NCBI GenBank assembly: GCA_902536555.1
Contig: CACAXR010000005.1
Coordinates: forward strand, 1-64,000
DNA: 64,000 nucleotides
Direction of reading: 5' to 3'
Source of the DNA: an uncultured Prochlorococcus sp.
GTDB lineage: Bacteria; Cyanobacteriota; Cyanobacteriia; PCC-6307; Cyanobiaceae
Shown: in pieces, positions 9,282 through 61,586 of the stretch
Numbering within the stretch: the stretch's first letter is position 1
Layout: every line of letters starts with the position of its first letter
Program-made: the position numbers and the translations under genes
Notes under the pieces: generated by a model
What the model was told of the DNA's origin: nothing
The model's database searches: none
What the model saw: only the letters and a program-made list of their open reading frames with translations

Positions 9282-10673
9282 TTAAACCTGAAAAATAAAC
9301 TTTAGAAATTTCTTTACCCTTTCGTAGGGAGGATACCGCAGATTTAAATCAAATAAAAAACCTTTAAAAGTAATAGATTTTTGATTTGAAAAATTTCGAA
9401 ACCCTTCTTCTCCATGAAATTTACCAATACCACTTTGCCCAACGCCTCCAAACGGTAAATTTGGAATAAGGACTGGTAACATCACATCATTTATACAAAT
9501 TGTTCCAGAGCTGGTTACTTTTGAAATGTGTTTATGGATTTTTTTATTGCCTCCAAATAAGTAGATTGCTAAGGGCTTTGATGTTTGACTAATCTGCTTT
9601 AAAGCTGATTCCTTATCATCAATTCCAATTATTGGAAGTAGTGAACTGAATAATTCTTTCTGCAAAATATCTGTTTCATTTAATTTAGTTCTCAAAATTG
9701 TAGGAGATATTTTCAACTTTTTTTTACTAAAAGTCCCCCCAAATAAAATTCTTTTTTCTTTTTCGTATTGTTTGAGAATTTCTACAGTTGATGTAAATTG
9801 TTTTTTCTCCAATTTTGATAGGTTTTCTGAAATAATTGGATTATCTCCGTAAAAACTTACTATGTATTTCTTTAATTTTTCTATAAAAATATTTTCAATT
9901 TCTTTATCTACAAAGATATGATTCGGAGCCATGCAGGATTGACCAGAATTAAAAAATTTACCCCAAACAATTCTTTTTGCAGCCACTTCTAAATTTGCAT
10001 TCTTGAAAACAATTACAGGATTTGTTCCGCTTAACTCAAGAGTTAATGGAGTTAAGTTTTTAGAAGCTAATTTCATTATAGATTTTCCAGTTTCAGTACT
10101 TCCTGTAAAAAAAATGTGGTCAAAATTTTGTTCAATTAATTTTATGGATTGTTTATTATCACCCTCTACTGTTATTAGGACATCTTTACGGAAATATTTG
10201 GAAGTAAGCTTTTTAATAAGTTTTGAGGTCGCAGGACATTTCTCTGATGGTTTTATAACTGCAGTATTTCCTGCTGAGAAAATATTTACCAATGGCTTTA
10301 AAATATAAAGTAATGGATAATTATAAGGACCAAGAATTAAGACACACCCAAGAGGTTCGTAAATAACTTTGGAGGATGATGGAAATAGATAAAAAGGGGT
10401 ATCAATCTTTTTTGGTCGCATCCAAGATTTGAGTTTCTTTTTTATAAGTGAAATTTCTTCTTTCACTAAAAGGATTTCTGAAAGCCCTTCAATTTCAGAT
10501 TTGCCGAGATCAACAAAAAGTGATTTAATAATCTCTTTTTTATTTTCATCCAAAAGTTTAGAAACTATATTGATATGAAGGATGCGCCATTTTATATCTT
10601 CAGTTTTACCAGTGAGAACTGTATCTTTTAATTTATTAATGTCTTCTAAATGAAATTTGTCAGAAATTTTCAT
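9282..10673 (-). CDS. Aldehyde dehydrogenase family protein
   Basis: LGPYNYPLLYILKPLVN, FTGSTETGKSIM, LTLELSGTNPVIV, GQSCMAPNHIFV, LPFGGVGQSGIGKFHGEEGFRNFS. Confidence 0.93.
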   Translation of the reverse strand: MKISDKFHLEDINKLKDTVLTGKTEDIKWRILHINIVSKLLDENKKEIIKSLFVDLGKSEIEGLSEILLVKEEISLIKKKLKSWMRPKKIDTPFYLFPSSSKVIYEPLGCVLILGPYNYPLLYILKPLVNIFSAGNTAVIKPSEKCPATSKLIKKLTSKYFRKDVLITVEGDNKQSIKLIEQNFDHIFFTGSTETGKSIMKLASKNLTPLTLELSGTNPVIVFKNANLEVAAKRIVWGKFFNSGQSCMAPNHIFVDKEIENIFIEKLKKYIVSFYGDNPIISENLSKLEKKQFTSTVEILKQYEKEKRILFGGTFSKKKLKISPTILRTKLNETDILQKELFSSLLPIIGIDDKESALKQISQTSKPLAIYLFGGNKKIHKHISKVTSSGTICINDVMLPVLIPNLPFGGVGQSGIGKFHGEEGFRNFSNQKSITFKGFLFDLNLRYPPYERVKKFLKFIFQV

Positions 10674-36645: not shown

Positions 36646-36811
36646 TACTGAATACAAGTTTTATCAAATATATCTGAATTTTTGATAAAATGCTGATCTG
36701 CGAGATCCCATTTATATTGATCAATTTTGGAAGGACCCCTTTCGAATCAAATAAACAATATTTATACTTTTTTATTACTTACCTTTTTCCTCGTAGCAAT
36801 GCTTTTGGCCA

Positions 36812-36883
<72 letters not shown>

Positions 36884-36893
36884 AATTTTAAAG

Positions 36894-36975
36894 TGGGCCG
36901 GGTTGGATTTGAACCAACGTAGGCAGAGCCAGCGGATTTACAGTCCGCCCCCTTTAACCACTCGGGCACCGACCC
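36894..36975 (-). tRNA. trnY: tRNA-Tyr (GTA)
   Basis: Reverse complement gggtcggtgcccgagtggttaaagggggcggactGTAaatccgctggctctgcctacgttggttcaaatccaacccggccca; long variable arm. Confidence 0.95.
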
Positions 36976-50206: not shown

Positions 50207-50650
50207 ATGGAAACAAAAAACTCAATATCTATAAAGCGTTCGATAGCTATTAAAGCTGTAGTCACTCCAACATGGAAGGAAGATGCTGAAAAAGAATTAA
50301 GTAAAGCAATTTCAAATATTGATCAGCAATTATCTCAACTTGAGCAGGAGGGGCAACAAATAGTAAATAATATTAGATCCCAATCGGTTAACCCTCTAGA
50401 TCCAAGAGTTCAAGAACAGGTTAGTCAGGTGCAACAACAAGTCGCAGCAAAACGAAATGAAATTGAAGAACAAAAAAGAAATTTACTTCAACAACAGAGT
50501 CAAGTTCGCGAATTAAAAATGGACGAAATTGTTGATCAAGGACAAGTGGATAGTTTCTGTGATGTCACTGTTGGCGACAATCTTATTGAAAAAATGCAAG
50601 TCTCGATAATTGTTAAAGATGGAGTTATTCAATCTATAGATAATAATTAA
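50207..50650 (+). CDS. YlqD-family protein
   Basis: SIAIKAVVTPTWKEDAEKEL, central coiled coil, C-terminal VDSFCDVTVGDNLIEKMQVSIIVKDGVIQSID. Confidence 0.8.
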   Translation: METKNSISIKRSIAIKAVVTPTWKEDAEKELSKAISNIDQQLSQLEQEGQQIVNNIRSQSVNPLDPRVQEQVSQVQQQVAAKRNEIEEQKRNLLQQQSQVRELKMDEIVDQGQVDSFCDVTVGDNLIEKMQVSIIVKDGVIQSIDNN

Positions 50651-50727
50651 AGAGAAGATTTAGTTATTGATAAAAATAAGTAAATCATAATTGGCGAAAA
50701 GTTTTAAATTCTAATCGATCTAAATTA

Positions 50728-50880
50728 TTACTTTCTTAAGTTTTAAGAGTTTCCACTGAGAACATGATTTCGTATAATAATAACAAGTGTTTAAAAGGCG
50801 TCTAACCTCATAAATAGTAGACACTTTGGTAGACAGTCCTTGAAAACCATTGCTATAACTAATTTCCTATGTCTCACGAA
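50728..50880 (+). promoter_or_regulatory. Left copy of the pdhC promoter/start region (attL side)
   Basis: Aligns with 60065-60230: ttactttcttaa, aacatgattt[c/t]gtataata, agtagacactttggtagacag, ccattgctataacta, ctatgtctcacgaa. Confidence 0.8.
50867..50880 (+). repeat. Direct repeat ctatgtctcacgaa, left att core
   Basis: Identical 14-mer at 60217-60230; includes the pdhC start codon and codons 2-4. Confidence 0.82.
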
Positions 50881-50912
50881 GTATCAATGGTGTAGTGACA
50901 GACAGCGAAGTG

Positions 50913-50936
50913 GTGGTTAGACAGTGGTTAGACAGT
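50913..50936 (+). repeat. Tandem gtggttagacagt motifs, candidate recombinase arm sites
   Basis: Two overlapping copies with 11-nt period; related copies at 50828-50837, 50986-50995, 60164-60173 and 60174-60185. Confidence 0.6.
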
Positions 50937-51016
50937 AAAAATCGATTATATTGTAATCAGTAACCATCATGGATCTTAGTTCTTAAGTTAGACAGAGATT
51001 CAGACATTTTTTAATC

Positions 51017-52393
51017 ATGCCCACCCTTGATTTCCTTGAACCAATCCTTGAAGGAAGGGCATCCATTTGCAAATACAAAGATAGAAAATATTTCAACCTA
51101 AGAGTTAAAAGAGATGGTAAAAACTATACCCATATTTCGCTTAATACCGATGACATTGAACAGGCCAAGAAGAATGCAATCGATGCCTATGTAAAAGTTG
51201 TATCTCAACCTCGTCGTTCTAGTAAGTCAACCATGACTATCCAAAGGATATTTGAGAAGTTCATGGAAGAGAAGCATAGAGATGTTGAAAGAGGTCAGAC
51301 TAAACCTTTAACTGCAAAATTGTATGGTCAAAGAATTGAACAAAGATACCTCCCTTATCTGAAATATAAAAATCTCAGTAATATCAAGGATATTCGGAAA
51401 GATAGTTTTAAAGAATATGCTGGATTCCAATTAGATAAGAAACAAAGAGGCAGATGGGCAAATGCATGCAAAGGTCTCTCTCCCACTACCATAAACACCG
51501 ATATATCCACTCTGAATGTGATGTTCACATGGATGGTAAACAATAATCATCTTGATCCAGTTCACAAACCAGTAATCCAGAGAATTAAGAACAGAACAAA
51601 GTTTAGAGATGAAGCGAACCCTGCCTTCCTTCCTGATGACTGGAAAGCATTTAAGGATGTTCTATACAAGTTTGATCAAGGCCATGACAATGAATATGAG
51701 ACATGGCGAAGAAGGTGGATGATCAACTATGTCAGGTTCATGTATCAAGGTGGATTCAGACCACATGAAGCAAGAAAGATTAGGTTCGGGGATGTTGAAA
51801 TTAGTAAGAATAGAAAGGATGGTAAACCTGTCGCCATTATTCAGATTGATGCTGATACTAAAACTGGTAGGAGAGATGCAGTTATGAACGGAAATACCTT
51901 CCTTAATGTTAAATCTCATCTGAACAAAGGTATAAAGATTCGTAATAAGCAAATCAGTTTAATGAATGAGAAATTGTTGAAAGGTGATAGGGTCGTAGAT
52001 TTTCATAACCGTGGATATAAAGAACCACATGAATCTCTTCATAATGCTGATAAGGATGATCTAGTTCTTATGAATCCATTCCTTACTGGAACTAATAACG
52101 ATCATACGAGGCGAATGTATCATGACTCCCATATTCGTGATTGGTGGAACTTATTAATTGGAGAGTGTAATTTCAAGAATAGATATACCCTTTACTCACT
52201 TAGGTCAACACATATCTCTTATCAATTACTTCAGGGAATATCCGTTAACAAAGTGGCAAAGAATGTCGGAACAAGCATGGCCATGATCCAAATGACCTAT
52301 GACAGATTGAGTTCACGATACTCAATAGATGAATTGGGATTTTTCAAAGATACTCAAGTTCCAAGTCAAGGAGAAGATGAACTAATAAAATGA
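51017..52393 (+). CDS. int: Tyrosine recombinase / phage-type integrase
   Basis: 458 aa; catalytic-domain motifs GGFRPHEARKIRFGDVE, YTLYSLRSTHISYQLLQGISVNKVAKNVGTSMAMIQMTYDRLS; adjacent to att. Confidence 0.93.
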   Translation: MPTLDFLEPILEGRASICKYKDRKYFNLRVKRDGKNYTHISLNTDDIEQAKKNAIDAYVKVVSQPRRSSKSTMTIQRIFEKFMEEKHRDVERGQTKPLTAKLYGQRIEQRYLPYLKYKNLSNIKDIRKDSFKEYAGFQLDKKQRGRWANACKGLSPTTINTDISTLNVMFTWMVNNNHLDPVHKPVIQRIKNRTKFRDEANPAFLPDDWKAFKDVLYKFDQGHDNEYETWRRRWMINYVRFMYQGGFRPHEARKIRFGDVEISKNRKDGKPVAIIQIDADTKTGRRDAVMNGNTFLNVKSHLNKGIKIRNKQISLMNEKLLKGDRVVDFHNRGYKEPHESLHNADKDDLVLMNPFLTGTNNDHTRRMYHDSHIRDWWNLLIGECNFKNRYTLYSLRSTHISYQLLQGISVNKVAKNVGTSMAMIQMTYDRLSSRYSIDELGFFKDTQVPSQGEDELIK

Positions 52394-52517
52394 ACAACCA
52401 AGAATCAACAGATTGGATAAAACAAGTAGAAGTGGCAGATTATGGATAAATTCCAGGATTTGATCCACTCACAATGACCTAGAAGGTCGATGAAATCTAA
52501 CTTGAGGGTATTACATC

Positions 52518-52670
52518 ATGCGAAATTGGGAGATTAGGTATCGCTTACAACCCATTGGTGGTAAGTATTTTTTCAGAAGAGTTGAAGCGAAATATCAACA
52601 TGAGGCAAATGCAATTTTCGATGCAGAGATGCCAAGTGCAACAAGATGCGGATCAGCAAGGCCTGTTTAA
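52518..52670 (+). CDS. Small protein (50 aa), unknown
   Basis: MRNWEIRYRLQPIGGKYFFRRVEAKYQHEANAIFDAEMPSATRCGSARPV*, read by hand. Confidence 0.5.
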   Translation: MRNWEIRYRLQPIGGKYFFRRVEAKYQHEANAIFDAEMPSATRCGSARPV

Positions 52671-52733
52671 GATTATTTGTTGTTGCTTTTAACTACACTC
52701 ACACGCAACACTAAAATATGAAGAAAATATGTG

Positions 52734-52800
52734 GTTTATAGGTATTTTTGATGCCAAATACAACAATATTGTGGTATAATAAGTTTAACCACCTATAAAC
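52734..52800 (+). promoter_or_regulatory. Inverted repeat flanking the resolvase promoter (candidate res site or operator)
   Basis: gtttataggt (52734-52743) and acctataaac (52791-52800) flank ggTATAATaag. Confidence 0.55.
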
Positions 52801-52814
52801 AACACTTTAAGATA

Positions 52815-53357
52815 ATGAAAATCGGTCTAGCAAGAGTATCATCAGTAGGCCAGAATCTTGAAAGACAGATTATTGCTCTGAAAGAATATGGATGTGAAAA
52901 AATATTTGAAGAAAAGCAATCAGGAACTAAAGCAGAAGGTAGGAAAGTTTTAAGAGAATGGATTGATTTCTTAAGAGAGAATGATGAAGCAGTCGTAACT
53001 AGGATTGATCGCTGTAGCAGATCAGTATTAGATCTTCAGTTGATAGTTAAAGAATTAGAAAGTAAAGGAGTCACATTCGCAGCAACAGAACAATCAATAG
53101 ACACCAAGACACCAGAAGGAAAATGCTTCCTTAATATGCTTTCAGTTTTTTCAGAATTTGAGACCTCCATCAGGCATGAGAGACAGATGAGTGGAATTAA
53201 GGCCAATGCTCACAAGTTCAAAGGAAGAGGGCAGACTATAGACATTGAAAGGATTAAAGAATTAAAAGAGGAAGGTCTAGGAGCAACTGCAATAGGGAAA
53301 AAGATGGGTATTGATAGAACATCTGTTTACAGACTCCTCAAGAAGGTAGAAGCATGA
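52815..53357 (+). CDS. Serine recombinase, resolvase/invertase family
   Basis: KIGLARVSSVGQNLERQIIAL; VVTRIDRCSRSVLDL; C-terminal HTH LGATAIGKKMGIDRTSVYRLLKK. Confidence 0.94.
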   Translation: MKIGLARVSSVGQNLERQIIALKEYGCEKIFEEKQSGTKAEGRKVLREWIDFLRENDEAVVTRIDRCSRSVLDLQLIVKELESKGVTFAATEQSIDTKTPEGKCFLNMLSVFSEFETSIRHERQMSGIKANAHKFKGRGQTIDIERIKELKEEGLGATAIGKKMGIDRTSVYRLLKKVEA

Positions 53358-53503
53358 ATAATCCATTTACCCTCTATGAGAGAGAAGTCATGTCTGCACT
53401 CTATAAATCCCTCAATTACTGCGAAGAATATGATCTACCTACAACTGATATCACTAACGCATTGAACATCATAGAAAGTAAGATAAAAGAGGAGATTTCG
53501 TAG
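53354..53503 (+). CDS. Small protein (49 aa), translationally coupled to the resolvase
   Basis: ATGA overlap; MNNPFTLYEREVMSALYKSLNYCEEYDLPTTDITNALNIIESKIKEEIS*. Confidence 0.55.
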   Translation: MNNPFTLYEREVMSALYKSLNYCEEYDLPTTDITNALNIIESKIKEEIS

Positions 53504-53505
53504 CC

Positions 53506-53748
53506 ATGACCAAAGAATTTGATGACACAAACTGGAAACAAGAAATTTTAGGAAGTCTTGAATTTAATCAATCTAAATTTGCATCGAAATTATTAAAAAA
53601 TGGAGCAAAATCATATATGCAAGGAATTTATCTTGGATATCTTTACTCCAGATGGAAAAAATTGAAAGGTTATGACAAATACGATCCCAAACCTAATGAA
53701 GGGCAGTTACAGAGTTCTTTTCTTGAGTTTGAAAGTAAGTTGAGATAA
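53506..53748 (+). CDS. Hypothetical protein
   Basis: 80 aa ORF 2 nt after the previous stop. Confidence 0.6.
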   Translation: MTKEFDDTNWKQEILGSLEFNQSKFASKLLKNGAKSYMQGIYLGYLYSRWKKLKGYDKYDPKPNEGQLQSSFLEFESKLR

Positions 53749-54025
53749 ATCGATCAACAGGATGAAGACCTTTACAAGCACAGGTAGGTTGACCCTTACA
53801 GAGATAAAACCACTTCTTTGGATATTCTCCTTTCCAATCTTCTTTTCTTTTAGGAAATATAGATGCATTCCTTTTCTTTGAATCAGGAGAACATATCGGG
53901 CAAGCAAAACGAAAGGCCTTGAAACCATCGATGGTTACATAGGTGTAATCCTTTTCACATGTTGTATCAGTAAAGGATTTTACTAAGAAATTAATATTTT
54001 GATAATCACTATTTGTGGAGTTCAT
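53693..54025 (-). CDS. Stand-alone primase-type (CHC2-like) zinc finger protein
   Basis: FACPICSPDSKKRNASIFPKRKEDW...KKWFYLCKGQPTCACKGLHPVDRFI. Confidence 0.5.
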   Translation of the reverse strand: MNSTNSDYQNINFLVKSFTDTTCEKDYTYVTIDGFKAFRFACPICSPDSKKRNASIFPKRKEDWKGEYPKKWFYLCKGQPTCACKGLHPVDRFISTYFQTQEKNSVTALH

Positions 54026-54186
54026 TGTAAATTAACGATTTATCTATGTATAAAGAAAACGCCCTGTATCCTAGTTATGTAGGCATTTCATAACAATTGA
54101 GGATGTTTTGAGGATGTGTAAATGTTCCAGATACTAAATATTTTTGTGCTTTTCAGATTGAATAAAGATTAAAAACACCAGAATCC

Positions 54187-54218
54187 GATCACGAAGTGAT
54201 CCAAATGCGAAGCATTTG
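54187..54218 (+). repeat. Two abutting perfect hairpins with GAA loops
   Basis: GATCAC-gaa-GTGATC (54187-54201) followed directly by CAAATGC-gaa-GCATTTG (54202-54218); flanked by attaaaaa (54168-54175) and tttttaat (54231-54238). Confidence 0.85.
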
Positions 54219-54343
54219 ACTCTAGAAACATTTTTAATTCCCTTTAGAAATATAGGCCTCCAATGTATCTAAGAGGATGAGTCATAAGGAAAAGTTAGTT
54301 CGCTAAATAGTTACATATATCCTCAAAAGCACCTTATTAACAC

Positions 54344-54529
54344 ATGAGTATTCAAACCCCAGTAAGAAAGCAAAGGCATGTCTGCTACAAGACGAGAGAG
54401 GTAGATATCTATGCACCAATAGAGGAAACTCTCATGAAAGAGCATGGCCTTACTTACAGCGATCTTATGAAGAAAGGAGTCAGACACCTATGGAATCAGA
54501 GACAAACACATAAAGATCTATTGCTATGA
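54344..54529 (+). CDS. Small RHH-like protein
   Basis: 61 aa; VDIYAPIEETLMKEHGLTYSDLMKKGVRHLWNQ. Confidence 0.45.
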   Translation: MSIQTPVRKQRHVCYKTREVDIYAPIEETLMKEHGLTYSDLMKKGVRHLWNQRQTHKDLLL

Positions 54530-54657
54530 AAACAATCAAGATATCAGCAGTTCACTATGAGATGCTCAAAGGCATCATGAAGAAAAGAGGGATCAGGAAA
54601 GAAGATGAATGCATTGAAGAAATCATTCAAGAACTTTACAACACCAAAAAGAGATAG
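54526..54657 (+). CDS. Small RHH-like protein (43 aa)
   Basis: ATGA overlap with the preceding ORF; MKTIKISAVHYEMLKGIMKKRGIRKEDECIEEIIQELYNTKKR*. Confidence 0.5.
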   Translation: MKTIKISAVHYEMLKGIMKKRGIRKEDECIEEIIQELYNTKKR

Positions 54658-54659
54658 GT

Positions 54660-54878
54660 ATGACTACACAAATCGGAAAAATATATGCAGTTCAATGTGG
54701 TGACGATTCAAGGTATTACAAGACAGTGAGAATAGTTAGGAACGCAATGACAGGTAATTTGCAGAGCCAGATAAGTAATCCAGTTTATGGTGAAATTCCT
54801 CCTAATATTCCAATCATGCCTGAGTTGATGAGAAACAGATTGATGAGTATGAACAATTCACTCCCATTTAACGCATGA
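54660..54878 (+). CDS. Hypothetical protein
   Basis: 72 aa ORF 2 nt after the previous stop. Confidence 0.5.
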   Translation: MTTQIGKIYAVQCGDDSRYYKTVRIVRNAMTGNLQSQISNPVYGEIPPNIPIMPELMRNRLMSMNNSLPFNA

Positions 54879-54881
54879 CGC

Positions 54882-55064
54882 ATGAACAGATCCATTCATC
54901 AATCATCAAGGTATCGGGCAGCACTTAGGGAACTACACGAGACAGTTGAACTAAATTGTCGCCTGATACGCTTAAATGCAGAGTTTAAAAATATAGATAA
55001 TAAAATCAAAAATTTAAAAAAAAGGATAGATTCAGATTTAGGAATAACACGAATACAGAATTAG
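54882..55064 (+). CDS. Small coiled-coil-like protein
   Basis: 60 aa ORF; LNAEFKNIDNKIKNLKKRIDSDL. Confidence 0.4.
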   Translation: MNRSIHQSSRYRAALRELHETVELNCRLIRLNAEFKNIDNKIKNLKKRIDSDLGITRIQN

Positions 55065-55295
55065 ACGAGATTGCAATTGGTGTTTAAGTTTTTTGAAACA
55101 ACTAAACCTACACTGTATGTCTTTTTCGACCTTGAGTTACCATTCGATTCAAAATTTTTTTCATGGCCTAGATCCACCTATAGGATTTGATAAATAATTA
55201 ATGGAATTGCTGATATCATGATTTATTGAGAACTAAACAGTTCCTCACTTCATTCTTTGCACTAATTAGTGTTTAATTTCTGACTACCTTATAAG

Positions 55296-55326
55296 AGGAG
55301 ATAATTAATTTTATCTCCTTTTTTTA
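55296..55326 (+). terminator. Terminator or attenuator immediately 5' of the DruA-like gene
   Basis: aggagataa ttaatt ttatctcct then a T run; 9 bp perfect stem. Confidence 0.75.
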
Positions 55327-55330
55327 ATGC

Positions 55331-56311
55331 TTGATTAATAACAAAAAAGAGAAATTACATTCAAAAAAGTGTAATATTCAAACCGAACCACCCATTCGGA
55401 ATTTGAGTCAACAATCTAGACACGAAACAAGGAGTAAAAATGGTCGATTTTCTGAAGGAATAAATCCACCATGCAAACAGATAAATGTATCTCTCCCTGC
55501 ACCCCTCATAGACTCGCTTGATGAGTATGGAAGAGAACATGGAACTGGTAGAGGTAAATCTCTTCAAAGACTGTTAGAGGGGATCCTAGAGGTCAAAGAA
55601 ATGAAGATGGTTGATGAAGTCGCTGATAAGACAAAAGTTCGATTGGAGTTAGTAAAAACAAGTCATCCGCTATATGTCGAATTTAGGAAAAAACACTATA
55701 TCCCTAATCGAGGAGTAGTAGGCCAACAAATGCAATATCTGATCTTCTATGGAGAGAAAGTTGTTGGAGTAATTGGAGGAGCATCGGCAGTTTTCAAGAC
55801 AGAAGAAAGAGATAATTATTTTGGTCTATCTACAGAAAAGGATATTAAAACTCGACAACTGAATAGCATCATCAACAACAATATTTTCAAGTTAGATTTC
55901 CCTGCACGAAATCTTGCAACCATTGTTTTGGGAATGTGGAGAAAACAGATTGCTAAAGATTGGGAGAAGTTATATGGAGTCGAAGTTGCAGCCTTTGAAA
56001 CCTTTGTTGTTGAAGAAAGATTATGGAATGGCAAGACAAGAAACGGTGCTTGCTATCGAGCAGATAATTGGAAGTTAGTAGGCCTTACTAAGGGATATGG
56101 AAAAACAAATACAAGAGGAAGAACTCACAATAATAAATTACTAAAATCTCAAAAATTGATTTATTGTTTGCGATTAAAAAATAAAGAATTTTGCACAGAA
56201 TATACAACTTGTTGGAATGATCCTGTTAAGCAAAAAGAGATCACTCGAAAGAGGAAAGAAATGATCTCTGATAACTTGGATCTCTTATTAGAAGAGATCA
56301 AGGCCTCATAA
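55331..56311 (+). CDS. DruA-like DUF4338 protein with N-terminal RHH-like segment
   Basis: NVSLPAPLIDSLDEYGREHGTGRGKSLQRLLEGI; HPLYVEFRKKHYIPNRGVVGQQMQYLIFYGEKVVGVIGGASAVFKTEERDNYFG; NNNIFKLDFPARNLATIVLGM; YGVEVAAFETFVVEERLWNGKTRNGACYRADNWKLVGLTKGYG. Confidence 0.75.
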   Translation: MINNKKEKLHSKKCNIQTEPPIRNLSQQSRHETRSKNGRFSEGINPPCKQINVSLPAPLIDSLDEYGREHGTGRGKSLQRLLEGILEVKEMKMVDEVADKTKVRLELVKTSHPLYVEFRKKHYIPNRGVVGQQMQYLIFYGEKVVGVIGGASAVFKTEERDNYFGLSTEKDIKTRQLNSIINNNIFKLDFPARNLATIVLGMWRKQIAKDWEKLYGVEVAAFETFVVEERLWNGKTRNGACYRADNWKLVGLTKGYGKTNTRGRTHNNKLLKSQKLIYCLRLKNKEFCTEYTTCWNDPVKQKEITRKRKEMISDNLDLLLEEIKAS

Positions 56312-56312
56312 A

Positions 56313-57782
56313 TTATCCAAATAGAAATTTATCAGGATTATATTCTTCATCGTCAAATTTTGAATCAGGTTTTTCTTCAAAAAATTTCATAATATCCTCC
56401 TGAGTTTCCATAGAATTTCCATATAGTTCTTCATAGTTTTTTTCATCAATTTCATCCTTGATTCTTTGTGCCTTTTTTAGTTTTTCTGTAGCAAGATCCC
56501 TTTCATCTTGACCAGTTGCATATTTCCAATCAGCAAATGTTGAATTGTTTTTTTGTCTTAATTTTTGTTTGACACGATTCAATAAATTGCGTTCAACTCT
56601 CTCCTTGATATTGGAATCTAATTTGTCAAAAGTTTCTGAAAGTTTCTTTGATAAAAGATCTATTTCGTCATAACAATCTTCAATAACTTCAAGGTGAGAA
56701 ATTACTTCACTATCACTCCTGGAATTTTTTTGATGAATACCATTTTTTACTTTTATGGTTTGATCAAATTTAAACTCAAGAGGTTCGTGACCTATCTGAT
56801 GAGAGATAGTTCTAATAAAAACATCAGTTGTTTCTTTTAGATCAGTTTGACTACTAGAAAGAACTAATCTTTCAATGACAAAATAATCAGATTTATTGAA
56901 CATTTCATCAGATTTTTTTTCAATTAACTTGATCGGATTTAGGAGTGAATCTTTTGGATCAAATTCAACAAATCTTTGAACATTCTTCCAATAATGAGTT
57001 AATTCTTTTTCAAGATGATAATCTTCATTCCTCAAATGTTTACCAACATAAAACTTAATTTGTCGAATTTTTGCATGTTTAGTTTCAATAAAACCTTGAA
57101 GAGAAAGTATCTCATCTTCAGTTCTCAATGCGGTAATAAGTTCAGGATATTTTTTGACATAACCTGTATGTTTTATGAGATCCAAATCAACAACATTTGG
57201 ATATCTATGAGAAGCAACAAGAAAGGCCATGTTCCTTGTTTTCATTCCATATGAATGACCCATACCTCCACATTTTTTTCCACCATCACGAACATTCTTA
57301 ATCCCTGCGATTAGATACTGTTCCTCAGTTAGATCGATGACATATTTGTTTTTTGCAAACTTACTTTCTATCCACCAATGTTTATCTTTATCTCCCTTTA
57401 TTGCGAGTGGGCATTTGACTGCATAAAGATCAACATCTCTAAAAAATAATCGATGTAAAACACCTGAAGCAAGATAACACCAACCCCTTGTTAAATTAGA
57501 TTTTGATCTTTTAGGAGGGCGAGTTCCATCAGAGAATTTTTTAACAACATCCATAGTGATATATCCTCTCCACTTCTTATCCTGATCTAATTTGACTCCC
57601 TGTGGCCTTATGAATAATTCCAATATTGATTCACAGGCAGAAAGGATATTTTCATGGAGATATTCAGTTGATAAATCTCCTTCCTCATATGGTTTAGTTG
57701 GTTGGAATAAATCTGGTTTTACAAATTCACCATTTACAACTAATTTCCCATTTTTTGAGGTGATAAAAAATGTATTGTTCAT
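56313..57782 (-). CDS. Large protein with putative Cys-His-Asp (papain/transglutaminase-like) domain
   Basis: SNLTRGWCYLASGVLHRLFF...DKHWWIESKFAKNKYVIDLTEEQY; likely start MNNTFF at 57782 within the longer supplied ORF. Confidence 0.6.
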   Translation of the reverse strand: MNNTFFITSKNGKLVVNGEFVKPDLFQPTKPYEEGDLSTEYLHENILSACESILELFIRPQGVKLDQDKKWRGYITMDVVKKFSDGTRPPKRSKSNLTRGWCYLASGVLHRLFFRDVDLYAVKCPLAIKGDKDKHWWIESKFAKNKYVIDLTEEQYLIAGIKNVRDGGKKCGGMGHSYGMKTRNMAFLVASHRYPNVVDLDLIKHTGYVKKYPELITALRTEDEILSLQGFIETKHAKIRQIKFYVGKHLRNEDYHLEKELTHYWKNVQRFVEFDPKDSLLNPIKLIEKKSDEMFNKSDYFVIERLVLSSSQTDLKETTDVFIRTISHQIGHEPLEFKFDQTIKVKNGIHQKNSRSDSEVISHLEVIEDCYDEIDLLSKKLSETFDKLDSNIKERVERNLLNRVKQKLRQKNNSTFADWKYATGQDERDLATEKLKKAQRIKDEIDEKNYEELYGNSMETQEDIMKFFEEKPDSKFDDEEYNPDKFLFG

Positions 57783-57795
57783 TGTGATAAACCCC

Positions 57796-58053
57796 CTATT
57801 TGAAATAAGGGGATGTATCACATTCGATGTTCAAAGATCTTAGAAATCTTCTTACATACGAAGTCACATTCTTTTCATAATTGCGACTTTTTGGAGAAGG
57901 CGAAATAACACAAGTTCTCTTCTCTCCTCCAAACATTCCAACTACTTTGATGTGTCTAGATTGAATAACCTCAACATGATTATCATCAGTTATTTTTTTC
58001 AAAAATTTGATGATTTCTTCATTGATTTTTTTACACTTCATGAGACACCTCAA
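57796..58053 (-). CDS. HicA-like (dsRBD-fold) small protein
   Basis: NHVEVIQSRHIKVVGMFGGEKRTCVISPSPKSRNYEKNVTSYVRRFLRSLNI. Confidence 0.45.
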   Translation of the reverse strand: MRCLMKCKKINEEIIKFLKKITDDNHVEVIQSRHIKVVGMFGGEKRTCVISPSPKSRNYEKNVTSYVRRFLRSLNIECDTSPYFK

Positions 58054-58351
58054 GATTGAGATCTTTCTCTTCGATTACAGATAAGAATCTTTCTTGATGA
58101 AGAGGAATCACATTATCAAGAGCATCTGGATCAACAAAAAGAGTGAAGAGATCTTCCTCTTTTAAGATCAATGATTCTGCATCAACTAATGATTCATCCT
58201 TGATAGGTTCACAGTTACATCTACACCAATCAACAATTGATTTTCTGGCGACTGAATACTGTTGATAATCGTGGCCTATCTTCTTACATATACGAGTGAT
58301 GGTTTTTCGACATCTAGGGCAGATTCGAGTTTCCTTCCAAGAAAATGGCAT
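58031..58351 (-). CDS. Small Cys-rich, likely zinc-binding protein
   Basis: RICPRCRKTITRICKKIGHDYQQYSVARKSIVDWCRCNCEPI. Confidence 0.6.
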   Translation of the reverse strand: MPFSWKETRICPRCRKTITRICKKIGHDYQQYSVARKSIVDWCRCNCEPIKDESLVDAESLILKEEDLFTLFVDPDALDNVIPLHQERFLSVIEEKDLNLEVSHEV

Positions 58352-58665
58352 TACTCTTCCTCCTCACTTCTAGTGCGATCAAGATATTCATCTACCTTCT
58401 TTCTGTAGTCGATCTCTCCCTTATCAGGAATAAAAGGAAGTTCATTTCCATCACCATCTTTGATAAGTGCAATATCTTCAAAATCTTCCCAATTCTTTTG
58501 GAAATCAGATGGAGTAAACATTGCAGTTGACTTCTCAAGAATTGAAAAATCAGAGTTGATGATACTTCTAACTTCTTTGTTTGTTAGACCTTTCTTGGCC
58601 TTGACTCCGAACCATAATTCACCTGTAAAAGGTATTAGAACGGAATACTCATGATCATGTTTCAT
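58351..58665 (-). CDS. Hypothetical protein
   Basis: 104 aa ORF preceded by leader repeat copy 1. Confidence 0.65.
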   Translation of the reverse strand: MKHDHEYSVLIPFTGELWFGVKAKKGLTNKEVRSIINSDFSILEKSTAMFTPSDFQKNWEDFEDIALIKDGDGNELPFIPDKGEIDYRKKVDEYLDRTRSEEEE

Positions 58666-58693
58666 AATGAATAATTCAATAATTTAAAAAAAT

Positions 58694-58742
58694 GCTGCAT
58701 CGGTAAAACCATTAAGGGTTTAGAGACGGTCAACTGTCGTCT
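58694..58742 (-). repeat. Leader repeat copy 1
   Basis: gctgcatcggtaaaaccattaagggtttagagacggtcaactgtcgtct; 28 nt upstream of the minus-strand start at 58665. Confidence 0.85.
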
Positions 58743-58751
58743 TTATGTGAT

Positions 58752-58946
58752 TTACAAGTCGAAGAAATATCTTTTCTTAGAGATTTTTACTCCTCTAGAT
58801 TTTCTGATGTGTCTTGTTTTCTCACGACCACTCATTGGTGAATAGTGGCCTCCACAAGCGATGTTTCTATACATCGGATTTCGGTAAGAACCCCCTGATC
58901 CAAAACTGGAATCTCTAGGAGCAAACTCTTTTGCAATTGAAGTCAT
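58752..58946 (-). CDS. Small basic Gly/Ser-rich protein
   Basis: 64 aa ORF preceded by leader repeat copy 2. Confidence 0.6.
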   Translation of the reverse strand: MTSIAKEFAPRDSSFGSGGSYRNPMYRNIACGGHYSPMSGREKTRHIRKSRGVKISKKRYFFDL

Positions 58947-58973
58947 AATTCAAAATTCAAATATTGTTTGTTA

Positions 58974-59021
58974 CTGCATCGGCAAGGCCATTAAGGGTTT
59001 AGAGACGGTCAGCAATCGTCT
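58974..59021 (-). repeat. Leader repeat copy 2
   Basis: ctgcatcggcaaggccattaagggtttagagacggtcagcaatcgtct; 27 nt upstream of the start at 58946. Confidence 0.85.
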
Positions 59022-59042
59022 AAAAATTCTTAGAAATTAAAC

Positions 59043-59450
59043 TTATTTCTTGGATTGATAATTAAATATTTTTTCCAACGAATATCTAGTGAGACGGAAA
59101 GTAACCATCTCAATGAATTGTCTATCGTTATCACTCATCTCTTCCTCATCATCTGGATCCTGTGCATCTAAAAAGTCACTCAAGACATTCCATTTGATTC
59201 TGTCAAATCTGTCACGAGGTTCAAATTCCATGAACTCAGATATCAGATAGTCATTGTGGCCATTAAGAAGAAGATCGGTGTAATTCTGAAATGCGATGGT
59301 TAACTGTCTAATCCACTTAGATGGTTCTTGAGTTATCGGAAAGGAAAGAGACTCAGGATTATATGTTTCATCGATTTTTTTGAATGGTTTAACTAGATTT
59401 ACACTCTCATTTACAAGTTCAGTAAGTGATGCGAATTGATTTAAGTTCAT
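59043..59450 (-). CDS. Hypothetical acidic protein, paralogue of 59498-59812
   Basis: FPITQEPSKWIRQLTIAFQNYTDLLLNGHNDYLISEFMEFEPRDRFDRIKWNVLSDFLDAQDPDD. Confidence 0.65.
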   Translation of the reverse strand: MNLNQFASLTELVNESVNLVKPFKKIDETYNPESLSFPITQEPSKWIRQLTIAFQNYTDLLLNGHNDYLISEFMEFEPRDRFDRIKWNVLSDFLDAQDPDDEEEMSDNDRQFIEMVTFRLTRYSLEKIFNYQSKK

Positions 59451-59497
59451 GGATTTGAAAAAAATTGGTAATTTTGGATAAATGATTGAAATGAATA

Positions 59498-59812
59498 CTA
59501 TTTTTTGAAACCGATTTGAGAACAGACATCGTAAGCAAGTTCATCAGTAATGTTGTCGATGATGTCTTCACACACTTCAGTTTTCAAATGATTGTGATTA
59601 GTTGTCTCTAGGAAATTGCTGATACCATCCCATTTGATGCCATCCCATACTTCACAATGTTCGCCAGTAAGAATATCTGCTTTATCTTCTTCGCTTAAAC
59701 CCAAGTAATAGTCTTGAAATGTTTCCTTTAGACTTGCTTCCCATAGGTCTATTTGATTCTCTTGAATAGGGAAGGCAAGAAGTTTTTTTGTCTCAGTAGC
59801 AGTAGTAGTCAT
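59498..59812 (-). CDS. Hypothetical acidic protein, paralogue of 59043-59450
   Basis: MTTTATETKKLLAFPIQENQIDLWEASLKETFQDYYLGLSEEDKADILTGEHCEVWDGIKWDGISNFLETTNHNH; start reassigned from 59881. Confidence 0.65.
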   Translation of the reverse strand: MTTTATETKKLLAFPIQENQIDLWEASLKETFQDYYLGLSEEDKADILTGEHCEVWDGIKWDGISNFLETTNHNHLKTEVCEDIIDNITDELAYDVCSQIGFKK

Positions 59813-59838
59813 GTTGAAATTAGAAATTTTGGATAAGT

Positions 59839-59887
59839 GCTGCATCGGATCGACCTTTAAGGGTTTTGAGACGGTCAGCAATCGTCT
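59839..59887 (-). repeat. Leader repeat copy 3
   Basis: gctgcatcggatcgacctttaagggttttgagacggtcagcaatcgtct; 26 nt upstream of the start at 59812. Confidence 0.85.
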
Positions 59888-60064
59888 GTATACCAGTGAG
59901 ACAATTTAGAGGGCTCAGTTCTTGTTAGAAAAAAAAGAAAGTTAATCAATAAAAATGTAGCCTTTAAAAAATTATTAATTAACATTTTTTTATTAATATT
60001 TTTTCAACGCATCCAACAGACACAAAATATCGATATTGATACCCACTTTTTGGATCCTTTCTTT

Positions 60065-60230
60065 GTTACTTTCTTAATCTTTTATTAGTTCCCAACGGAA
60101 CATGATTTTGTATAATAAGACTATCGGTATTTGCTGTTGAAATTACTGTTCAAGCGTCAAGAAAGTTAGACACTTGGTTAGACAGCACTATCAAATCCAT
60201 TGCAATAACTACTGCACTATGTCTCACGAA
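60065..60230 (+). promoter_or_regulatory. Right copy of the pdhC promoter/start region (attR side)
   Basis: gttactttcttaat...aacatgattttgTATAATaag...agttagacacttggttagacag...ccattgcaataacta...ctATGtctcacgaa. Confidence 0.78.
60217..60230 (+). repeat. Direct repeat ctatgtctcacgaa, right att core
   Basis: Identical to 50867-50880. Confidence 0.82.
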
Positions 60231-61586
60231 ATATTCATGCCTGCCTTGAGTTCTACTATGACGGAGGGCAAGATTGTGGAATGGTTGAAAAATCCGGGAG
60301 ATAAGGTTGAAAGAGGAGAATCTGTCTTGGTTGTTGAATCTGATAAGGCAGATATGGATGTTGAATCTTTTCAAGATGGATATCTTGCGGCTGTTTTAAT
60401 GCCAGCTGGCAGCACTGCACCTGTTGGAGAAACTATCGGTCTCATTGTCGAAAATGAGGATGAGATAGCTTCTGTCCAAGAACATAATAAAGGAAATCAA
60501 CCCGAAGTCTCAACTTCAGACCAACTTGAACTGGTAAGCAATAAAACTGAAGAAAAACCAGTAGTCCAGACTGAAAATATCAAGAAAGAAGCTGAAGAAG
60601 TTGTCTTAAAGAGTGAAAAGCCTGTCCCATCTTTTAATGTTGATCAAATTAATGCCGCAACAAGTAATGTTTCTTCGAGGATAATTGCATCTCCAAGAGC
60701 TAAAAAACTAGCCTCTCAAATGGGTGTTGATTTAGCAAAGGTTCATGGATCTGGCCCTCACGGAAGGATTCAAGCCGATGATATTTTAAAAGCTAATGGC
60801 CAACCTGTTTCTATACCATGGATAGGAGAAGGTGATTCTCCTGCAAGTATTCATGGTGCAAATTTGGGAGTTGAAAGTAAACCAGAAACTTCAGGAAATA
60901 GTTTTGGTAATCCTGGAGAAACAGTTCAATTTAATACTCTTCAAAAAGCGGTAAATAAAAATATGGAATCTAGTTTAGATGTTCCATGTTTTAGGGTGGG
61001 TTACTCTATCCATACAGATAAATTAGATAATTTCTACAAAAAGGTAAAACAGAACGGAGTTACTATGACTGCTTTACTTGTAAAGGCAGTTGCAAAGACA
61101 CTAAAGAAACATCCTCAAGTTAACTCAAGCTTTTCAGAAAATGGAATTTCTTATCCAGAAAATATAAATATTGCTGTTGCTGTTGCAATGGAAGATGGGG
61201 GATTAATAACTCCAGTATTAAAAGAACCATGCAATACTGATTTATTTGAATTATCTAGGGAATGGAAAGATCTCGTAAAAAGATCGAGATCAAAACAATT
61301 AGAACCAGATGAATACTCAACGGGAACATTTACCTTATCTAACCTTGGAATGTTTGGTGTTGATAGATTTGACGCAATACTACCCCCAGGGACCGGTGCG
61401 ATCTTAGCTATAGCGTCATCGAAACCAACAGTTGTAGCTAATAGTGATGGTTCAATATCTGTTAAAAAAATAATGCAAGTAAATCTTACAGCTGATCACA
61501 GAGTGATCTATGGAGCTGATGGTGCTTCATTCTTGAAAGACTTAGCTAACCTGATTGAAAATGAGCCAGAGACACTTGTATCTTAA
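60219..61586 (+). CDS. pdhC: Dihydrolipoamide acetyltransferase (pyruvate dehydrogenase E2)
   Basis: MSHEIFMPALSSTMTEGKIVEWLKNPGDKVERGESVLVVESDKADMDVESF; SPRAKKLASQMGVDLAKVHGSGPHGRI; LTADHRVIYGADGASFL. Confidence 0.96.
   Translation: MSHEIFMPALSSTMTEGKIVEWLKNPGDKVERGESVLVVESDKADMDVESFQDGYLAAVLMPAGSTAPVGETIGLIVENEDEIASVQEHNKGNQPEVSTSDQLELVSNKTEEKPVVQTENIKKEAEEVVLKSEKPVPSFNVDQINAATSNVSSRIIASPRAKKLASQMGVDLAKVHGSGPHGRIQADDILKANGQPVSIPWIGEGDSPASIHGANLGVESKPETSGNSFGNPGETVQFNTLQKAVNKNMESSLDVPCFRVGYSIHTDKLDNFYKKVKQNGVTMTALLVKAVAKTLKKHPQVNSSFSENGISYPENINIAVAVAMEDGGLITPVLKEPCNTDLFELSREWKDLVKRSRSKQLEPDEYSTGTFTLSNLGMFGVDRFDAILPPGTGAILAIASSKPTVVANSDGSISVKKIMQVNLTADHRVIYGADGASFLKDLANLIENEPETLVS

Follow-up and report, generated by a model that had tools for sequence, protein, structure and literature searches.

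A probable site-specific integrative element at the 5' end of pdhC in Prochlorococcus and related picocyanobacteria

Results

An insertion at the start of pdhC

We analysed a window of 64,000 nucleotides from an uncultured Prochlorococcus sp. (contig CACAXR010000005.1, positions 1 to 64,000; source genome 58% complete), in which 9.35 kb of DNA lie between ylqD and pdhC, the gene for the E2 subunit of pyruvate dehydrogenase. Very probably, this DNA is a site-specific integrative element and belongs to an old family of picocyanobacterial elements that is dedicated to pdhC. The empty and filled sites, the crossover interval, the replacement of promoter and start codon, the arm geometry and the fidelity of the integrase clade to the locus can all be read from the DNA.

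The element is bounded by the 14-mer CTATGTCTCACGAA, which occurs in exact form in the window only at 50867-50880 and 60217-60230, all other similar matches having three mismatches each, the level expected by chance. As stated in a preliminary description of this DNA, the right copy is the start of pdhC, spanning its ATG at 60219 (M-S-H-E), and we regard the two copies as the true attL/attR pair. That description had treated the repeat as a 14-mer, which is exact for the core; the similarity really extends, imperfectly, over ~150 bp 5' of each core, in blocks of 56, 36 and 47 nt with 72-81% identity and a spacing of 9338-9350, and is best read as a promoter-bearing duplication. The two core genes named as flanks are indeed ylqD (50207..50650, plus strand), whose junction with pdhC is kept in empty genomes, and the target gene pdhC itself (60219..61586, plus strand), conserved in relatives. 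There is no tRNA near either end of the element, the window tRNAs being found only at 3.8 kb and 36.8-37.0 kb, in agreement with the earlier remark that neither end holds a tRNA fragment.

In order to find empty sites, 266 Prochlorococcus genomes, many of them incomplete single-cell assemblies, were searched with a strict pattern of ylqD stop, TATAAT and pdhC start in close order, which 148 genomes matched; for genomes outside this pattern with pdhC and ylqD on one contig, the locus was extracted and the gap measured. Among the 222 genomes that could be evaluated, with both genes on one contig, 214 are empty and eight carry an insert, so that the suggestion that all relatives might share the same DNA between the two genes fails. 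The empty sites of the close relatives L018, L015 and L017 are nearly identical to the left flank of the window, and the match continues through the core. The left flank therefore represents the host's own promoter region of pdhC, and the inserted DNA amounts to 9350 bp, counted from one core to the next. This native promoter and 5' untranslated region (50725..50866, plus strand, with TATAAT at 50773-50778), now stranded at attL, also groups with empty sites in the tree described below.

An integrase clade found only at this locus

The first gene of the element (51017..52393, plus strand) encodes a tyrosine integrase of 458 aa that matches phrog_1 (integrase, E 7e-23) and starts 137 bp past the left repeat; it is followed by a small serine resolvase/invertase of 180 aa (52815..53357, plus strand; PF00239, 2.7e-35), and the preliminary description had recognised both. 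Homologues of the integrase are present in two more Prochlorococcus genomes, AG-355-P16 (L038, ~85% identity) and AG-426-L07 (L039, 62%), in both cases between ylqD and pdhC, and the three elements, of 9.35 kb (window), 7.6 kb (L038) and 6.8 kb (L039), are inserted at the identical base. All three include a serine recombinase. A profile built from the three integrases retrieved no further copy in the 266 genomes; weak matches in G048, G031 and G054 were assigned to other lineages by the tree. In the PDB, the integrase profile had no sequence match.

When the profile was run against 250 genomes drawn from the order, nine more strong matches (E < 1e-100) were obtained, in other genera of the same family. 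Eight of these integrases lie directly after ylqD, and the ninth (L164) begins at a contig end with pdhC downstream. Thus all 12 members found, three from Prochlorococcus and nine from the other genera, are at the ylqD-pdhC locus and none is at an unrelated site, which was the second point on which the preliminary description had asked for a comparison. In the tree, the 12 integrases fall into a single clade (support 0.985) that is separate from the other sampled Prochlorococcus integrases, and the catalytic residues R248, K282, R396, H399 and Y428 are conserved in the 12 homologues. A serine recombinase accompanies the integrase in six of the nine distant islands (L164-L169), and no tRNA was found within the extracted loci L038, L039 and L161-L169.

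Other integrases, of family PF00589, were observed in L170, L171 and L172 near a tRNA-Thr/tRNA-Tyr pair that is also present in the window (36811-36975), and in L174, L175 and L177 on loci with tRNA-Ser(gct), which are possibly tycheposon-type islands.

Crossover and replacement of the pdhC start

The first four codons are ATG-AGT-CAC-GAA at the right end of L038 and L039 and ATG-TCT-CAC-GAA at the left end, where AGT and TCT are both serine codons. Since codon 2 differs between attR and attL, the start codon and codon 2 must be supplied by the element, with the exchange 3' of codon 2; in the window, left and right sequences diverge just past GAA. The crossover interval would thus be TCACGAA, seven bases in codons 2-4 of pdhC, located at 50874-50880 in the attL core (50867..50880, plus strand). 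A seven-base strand-exchange segment is the usual size for a tyrosine recombinase. At the attR core (60217..60230, plus strand) the promoter, ATG and codon 2 come from the element and host pdhC follows, the reading frame of the gene thus opening with a start codon and first codons from the right end. The host start codon stranded by integration (50869-50895) opens an eight-codon frame, MSHEVSMV, which stops ahead of the integrase.

The other genera show the same replacement with another start codon. In the four islands with both ends readable (L165-L167 and L169), the native TTG start is retained at the left end (GGAGACGGTTTTGGC) and an ATG is provided by the right end, as is also seen at the right end of L164; among 91 genomes sampled across the order, 11 (Synechococcus-like) have an uninterrupted native TTG start.

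The predicted replacement promoter of the window element, TTCCCA-N16-TATAAT (60089..60116, plus strand), clusters with those of other right ends. When 130-bp upstream sequences were placed in a tree, left flanks fell with the empty host sites, and right ends fell together, apart from the host promoters, with the exception of the right end of G107, which is host-like. A -10/-35-like sequence is kept at most right ends. Every two-ended element closes with a diverged version of the pdhC 5' region and a start codon, so that pdhC is probably read from signals on the element; the gene itself stays intact and is probably expressed. Three element-free genomes (G178, G192 and G218) have a right-end-type promoter, and in G192 and G218 native sequence turns into this promoter at a common stretch, TTATTACTTTCTTAA. 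We infer that in these three genomes an element was deleted by recombination between the two promoter copies, leaving its promoter behind; alternatively, these promoters could be ordinary host alleles from which the elements acquired their ends.

Putative arm sites at fixed spacing

The octamer GTTAGACA occurs six times in the window, against 1.46 expected, and five of the six occurrences are at the element ends. On the plus strand, the outer left sites (50916..50934) are GTTAGACA at 50916-50923 and 50927-50934, the inner left sites (50987..51006) are GTTAGACA at 50987-50994 and TTCAGACA at 50999-51006, and the right sites (60165..60184) are GTTAGACA at 60165-60172 and 60177-60184. Each of the seven Prochlorococcus elements with two ends, whether it has an integrase or not, carries TAGACA or a variant with one base changed at +40, +51, +111 and +123 and at -61 and -49 from codon E4, to within 1 bp. 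The core is therefore flanked by two arms of repeated arm-type sites at fixed spacing, a feature of lambda-type attP sites, and we consider the TAGACA/TGGACA-type repeats to be putative integrase arm sites in an attP-like layout. The pair GTTAGACA-N4-GTTAGACA occurs in five of the 266 genomes, four times upstream of pdhC and once, in G191, inside a protein-coding gene away from pdhC, where it was discarded as a chance match.

In the Synechococcus-like islands the arm motifs are mostly TTGGACA or TTGGAACA, the repeat being mostly TGGACA or TGGAACA vs TAGACA in Prochlorococcus. Most of the Prochlorococcus arm positions are filled there within 1-2 bp, though not every site was found in every island, and some islands have an extra right arm site ~72 bp before the core. 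Native pdhC promoters of several element-free clades (e.g. L018, L049 and L110) contain a TAGACA pair at the right-arm position, which the commonest allele has lost; such pairs may be old scars left by earlier elements.

All three integrase-bearing Prochlorococcus elements have TATAAT or a near-TATAAT sequence in the gap between their left arm pairs. The integrase may accordingly be transcribed from a promoter that belongs to it and that it controls itself, or it may be reached by read-through from the native promoter of pdhC.

Integrase-less mini-elements and remnants

Inserts of 1.1-1.8 kb flanked by the same core were found in four Prochlorococcus genomes (G176, G053, G017 and G107), with no integrase-like open reading frame in the insert and no match to the integrase profile in the genome. 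Their cargo consists of an exo/endonuclease-family and a T5orf172 protein in G176, a T5orf172-like protein in G053, an exo/endonuclease-family protein in G017 and, as judged by eye, a protein with TPR repeats in G107. The shared geometry suggests that these mini-elements would be mobilised in trans by a related integrase. In the closed genome G015 (1,657,990 bp; locus L079, G015:C1 ~382180-383700) a one-sided remnant keeps the right end and core and has lost the left core; the promoter at this decayed pdhC element is of the element type and differs from the native one seen in relatives whose gap is equally short.

The replacement promoter at the right end, the putative arm sites, the relatives without an integrase and the occurrence outside Prochlorococcus are additions to the preliminary description.

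Cargo of the window element

Downstream of the resolvase, the element contains a small open reading frame of a family of unknown function (53506..53748, plus strand; phrog_16908, E 1.3e-17) and a DruA-like protein (55331..56311, plus strand; PF14236, E 7.7e-21), with a 59% identical homologue in the pdhC island L165 and a further match in L166. PADLOC reported no confident defence system, the DruA-like protein being a weak match only. On the minus strand follow a 502-aa cargo protein (56313..57821; phrog_12251, 3.3e-7), residues 100-169 of which are 41% identical to a YunG-like protein (PF24585) of L038, and a cluster of short open reading frames (57796..59881, at 57796-58053, 58031-58351, 58351-58665, 58752-58946, 59043-59450 and 59498-59881), for which no Pfam match exceeded the cut-off among those scanned.

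A 74-nt repeat is present in three copies (58673-58746, 58952-59025 and 59818-59891), with 68-76% identity when compared with the first, and each copy immediately precedes an open reading frame on the minus strand. Its conserved core on the minus strand is AGACG..CGTCTC..AAACCCTTAA..CGATGCAG; the repeat has no Rfam match, and it looks like a shared leader or regulator site. Over 48-62 kb, all Rfam matches were sub-threshold.

Discussion

In the mechanism that we propose, the integrase would bind, once the element is an excised circle, the pairs of arm sites to the left and right of the core, in a lambda-like arrangement with a left arm of ~125 bp and a right arm of ~60 bp, and strands would be exchanged within TCACGAA. 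Integration would leave the host promoter of pdhC, with the first codons of the gene, stranded at the left end, where they would feed the short dead-end frame. The body of pdhC would be joined to the right end of the element, which brings a pdhC-type promoter, a start codon and a codon 2 of its own. Elements would be lost by recombination between the two promoter copies. Integrase activity, right-end transcription and excision are part of what we infer from sequence.

Four other explanations were considered. The size of 7-9 kb, the small open reading frames and the PHROG families of unknown function would fit a phage satellite or a defective prophage with pdhC as its chance target. We hold this to be unlikely, as no capsid, packaging or replication gene is found among the Pfam- or PHROGs-matched proteins of the reading frames scanned, and no relative of the integrase among the GenBank phages or, in two scans, in IMG/VR. 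A tycheposon with an unusual target would share the host genus, the tyrosine recombinase and the cargo-bearing island; the lack of a tRNA makes it improbable, as does the separation of the integrase clade from the other Prochlorococcus integrases sampled, tRNA-adjacent ones included, in a sample that did not contain the published tycheposon set. The elements are in any case distinct from tycheposons by their protein-coding target; the preliminary description had proposed a related or distinct family with such a target. It is also quite doubtful that the TAGACA/TGGACA repeats are sites of a host pdhC regulator, with the element just carrying a copied promoter: the paired TAGACA in native promoters of element-free clades would suit this idea, but four further copies are located at the left end beside the integrase, outside the pdhC promoter, with offsets kept across genera, and the arm letters vary together with the integrase lineage. 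Finally, an inherited immobile island or passive hotspot, with DNA piled up at the ylqD-pdhC junction and the repeats as its remnants, agrees with the rarity of inserts and the one-sided remnant in G015, and is made very improbable by the varied lengths and gene content at one exact base, the intact integrases with their catalytic residues, the two-sided cores, and attL sequences that match local host alleles where attR sequences do not.

Several observations weigh against a site-specific integrative element of the kind proposed. The Pfam Phage_integrase model stays below its cut-off for the pdhC-site integrases, and no excisionase was identified. The arm sites are not fully separable from host regulatory sites, because some host promoters hold a TAGACA pair at the right-arm position. 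The mini-elements differ slightly in their arm letters, and their genomes, which are incomplete, yielded no matching integrase. The right end of L039 has no clear promoter homology, and for L161-L163 and L168 pdhC was not found in the extracted stretch, so that their right ends are unseen.

By analogy, the mode of integration matches that of elements in dusA and prfC. Elements specific for dusA (e.g. IMEVchUSA3) integrate at the 5' end of this housekeeping gene (PMC8409611, PMC4482086), as the elements described here do at pdhC. The target, host phylum and gene content are different, integrase-less mini-elements share the att layout here, and the coding part replaced at pdhC is limited to the start codon plus 2-4 codons after it, which leaves the protein N-terminus nearly unchanged. 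According to the account of Hochhut and Waldor (1999) given in PMC8409611, the integrative and conjugative elements SXT/R391 target the 5' end of prfC and provide a new promoter and N-terminus. The pdhC elements likewise appear to give a 5'-end target a new promoter, whereas SXT/R391 is a large conjugative element and no conjugation genes were recognised in the pdhC elements.

Within the same genus, tycheposons (Hackl et al. 2023) are tRNA-targeting, as summarised in PMC10872708; they share with the pdhC elements the tyrosine recombinase and the island cargo, the target here being a protein-coding 5' end. The elements with cluster158946 integrases in Prochlorococcus and Synechococcus, often with a small serine recombinase nearby, lie 5' of tRNA-Phe or tRNA-Cys and were reported to be missed by PHROG profiles (PMC10187409). 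The pdhC elements also combine a tyrosine integrase with a nearby small serine recombinase, but they have no tRNA-Phe or tRNA-Cys, their integrase matches phrog_1 and no relative of it was found in IMG/VR. Att-flanked elements without an integrase are known as CIMEs. The mini-elements of 1.1-1.8 kb resemble them in having both att ends and cargo and no integrase; they differ in being very small, with one or two recognisable genes (exo/endonuclease family, T5orf172, TPR), and in that their mobilisation is predicted from geometry. Integrase-less att-flanked elements, CIMEs among them, have been reviewed (PMC5704250). Our literature search returned no account of pdhC as an integration site in Prochlorococcus or Synechococcus, although the 'cryptic elements' of Hackl et al. 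(2023), to which PMC10187409 refers, may be a prior notice.

A broader reading, for which we see about even chances, is a family-wide picocyanobacterial system at pdhC with an att layout common to autonomous elements and integrase-less mini-cassettes. A single integrase would then be able to shuffle cassettes of one or two genes, and element turnover would repeatedly replace the host pdhC promoter and start codon, the closed genome G015 included. The site-specific elements at pdhC would represent a mobile-element route in picocyanobacteria that does without tRNA genes, with a target kept across genera. They predict that pdhC, whose E2 product links glycolysis to acetyl-CoA, is driven by element-derived promoters in some strains. 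The arm sites, in which letters change and spacing holds, would offer a natural series for the co-evolution of integrase and site, and the mini-elements suggest compact cargo swapping in streamlined genomes.

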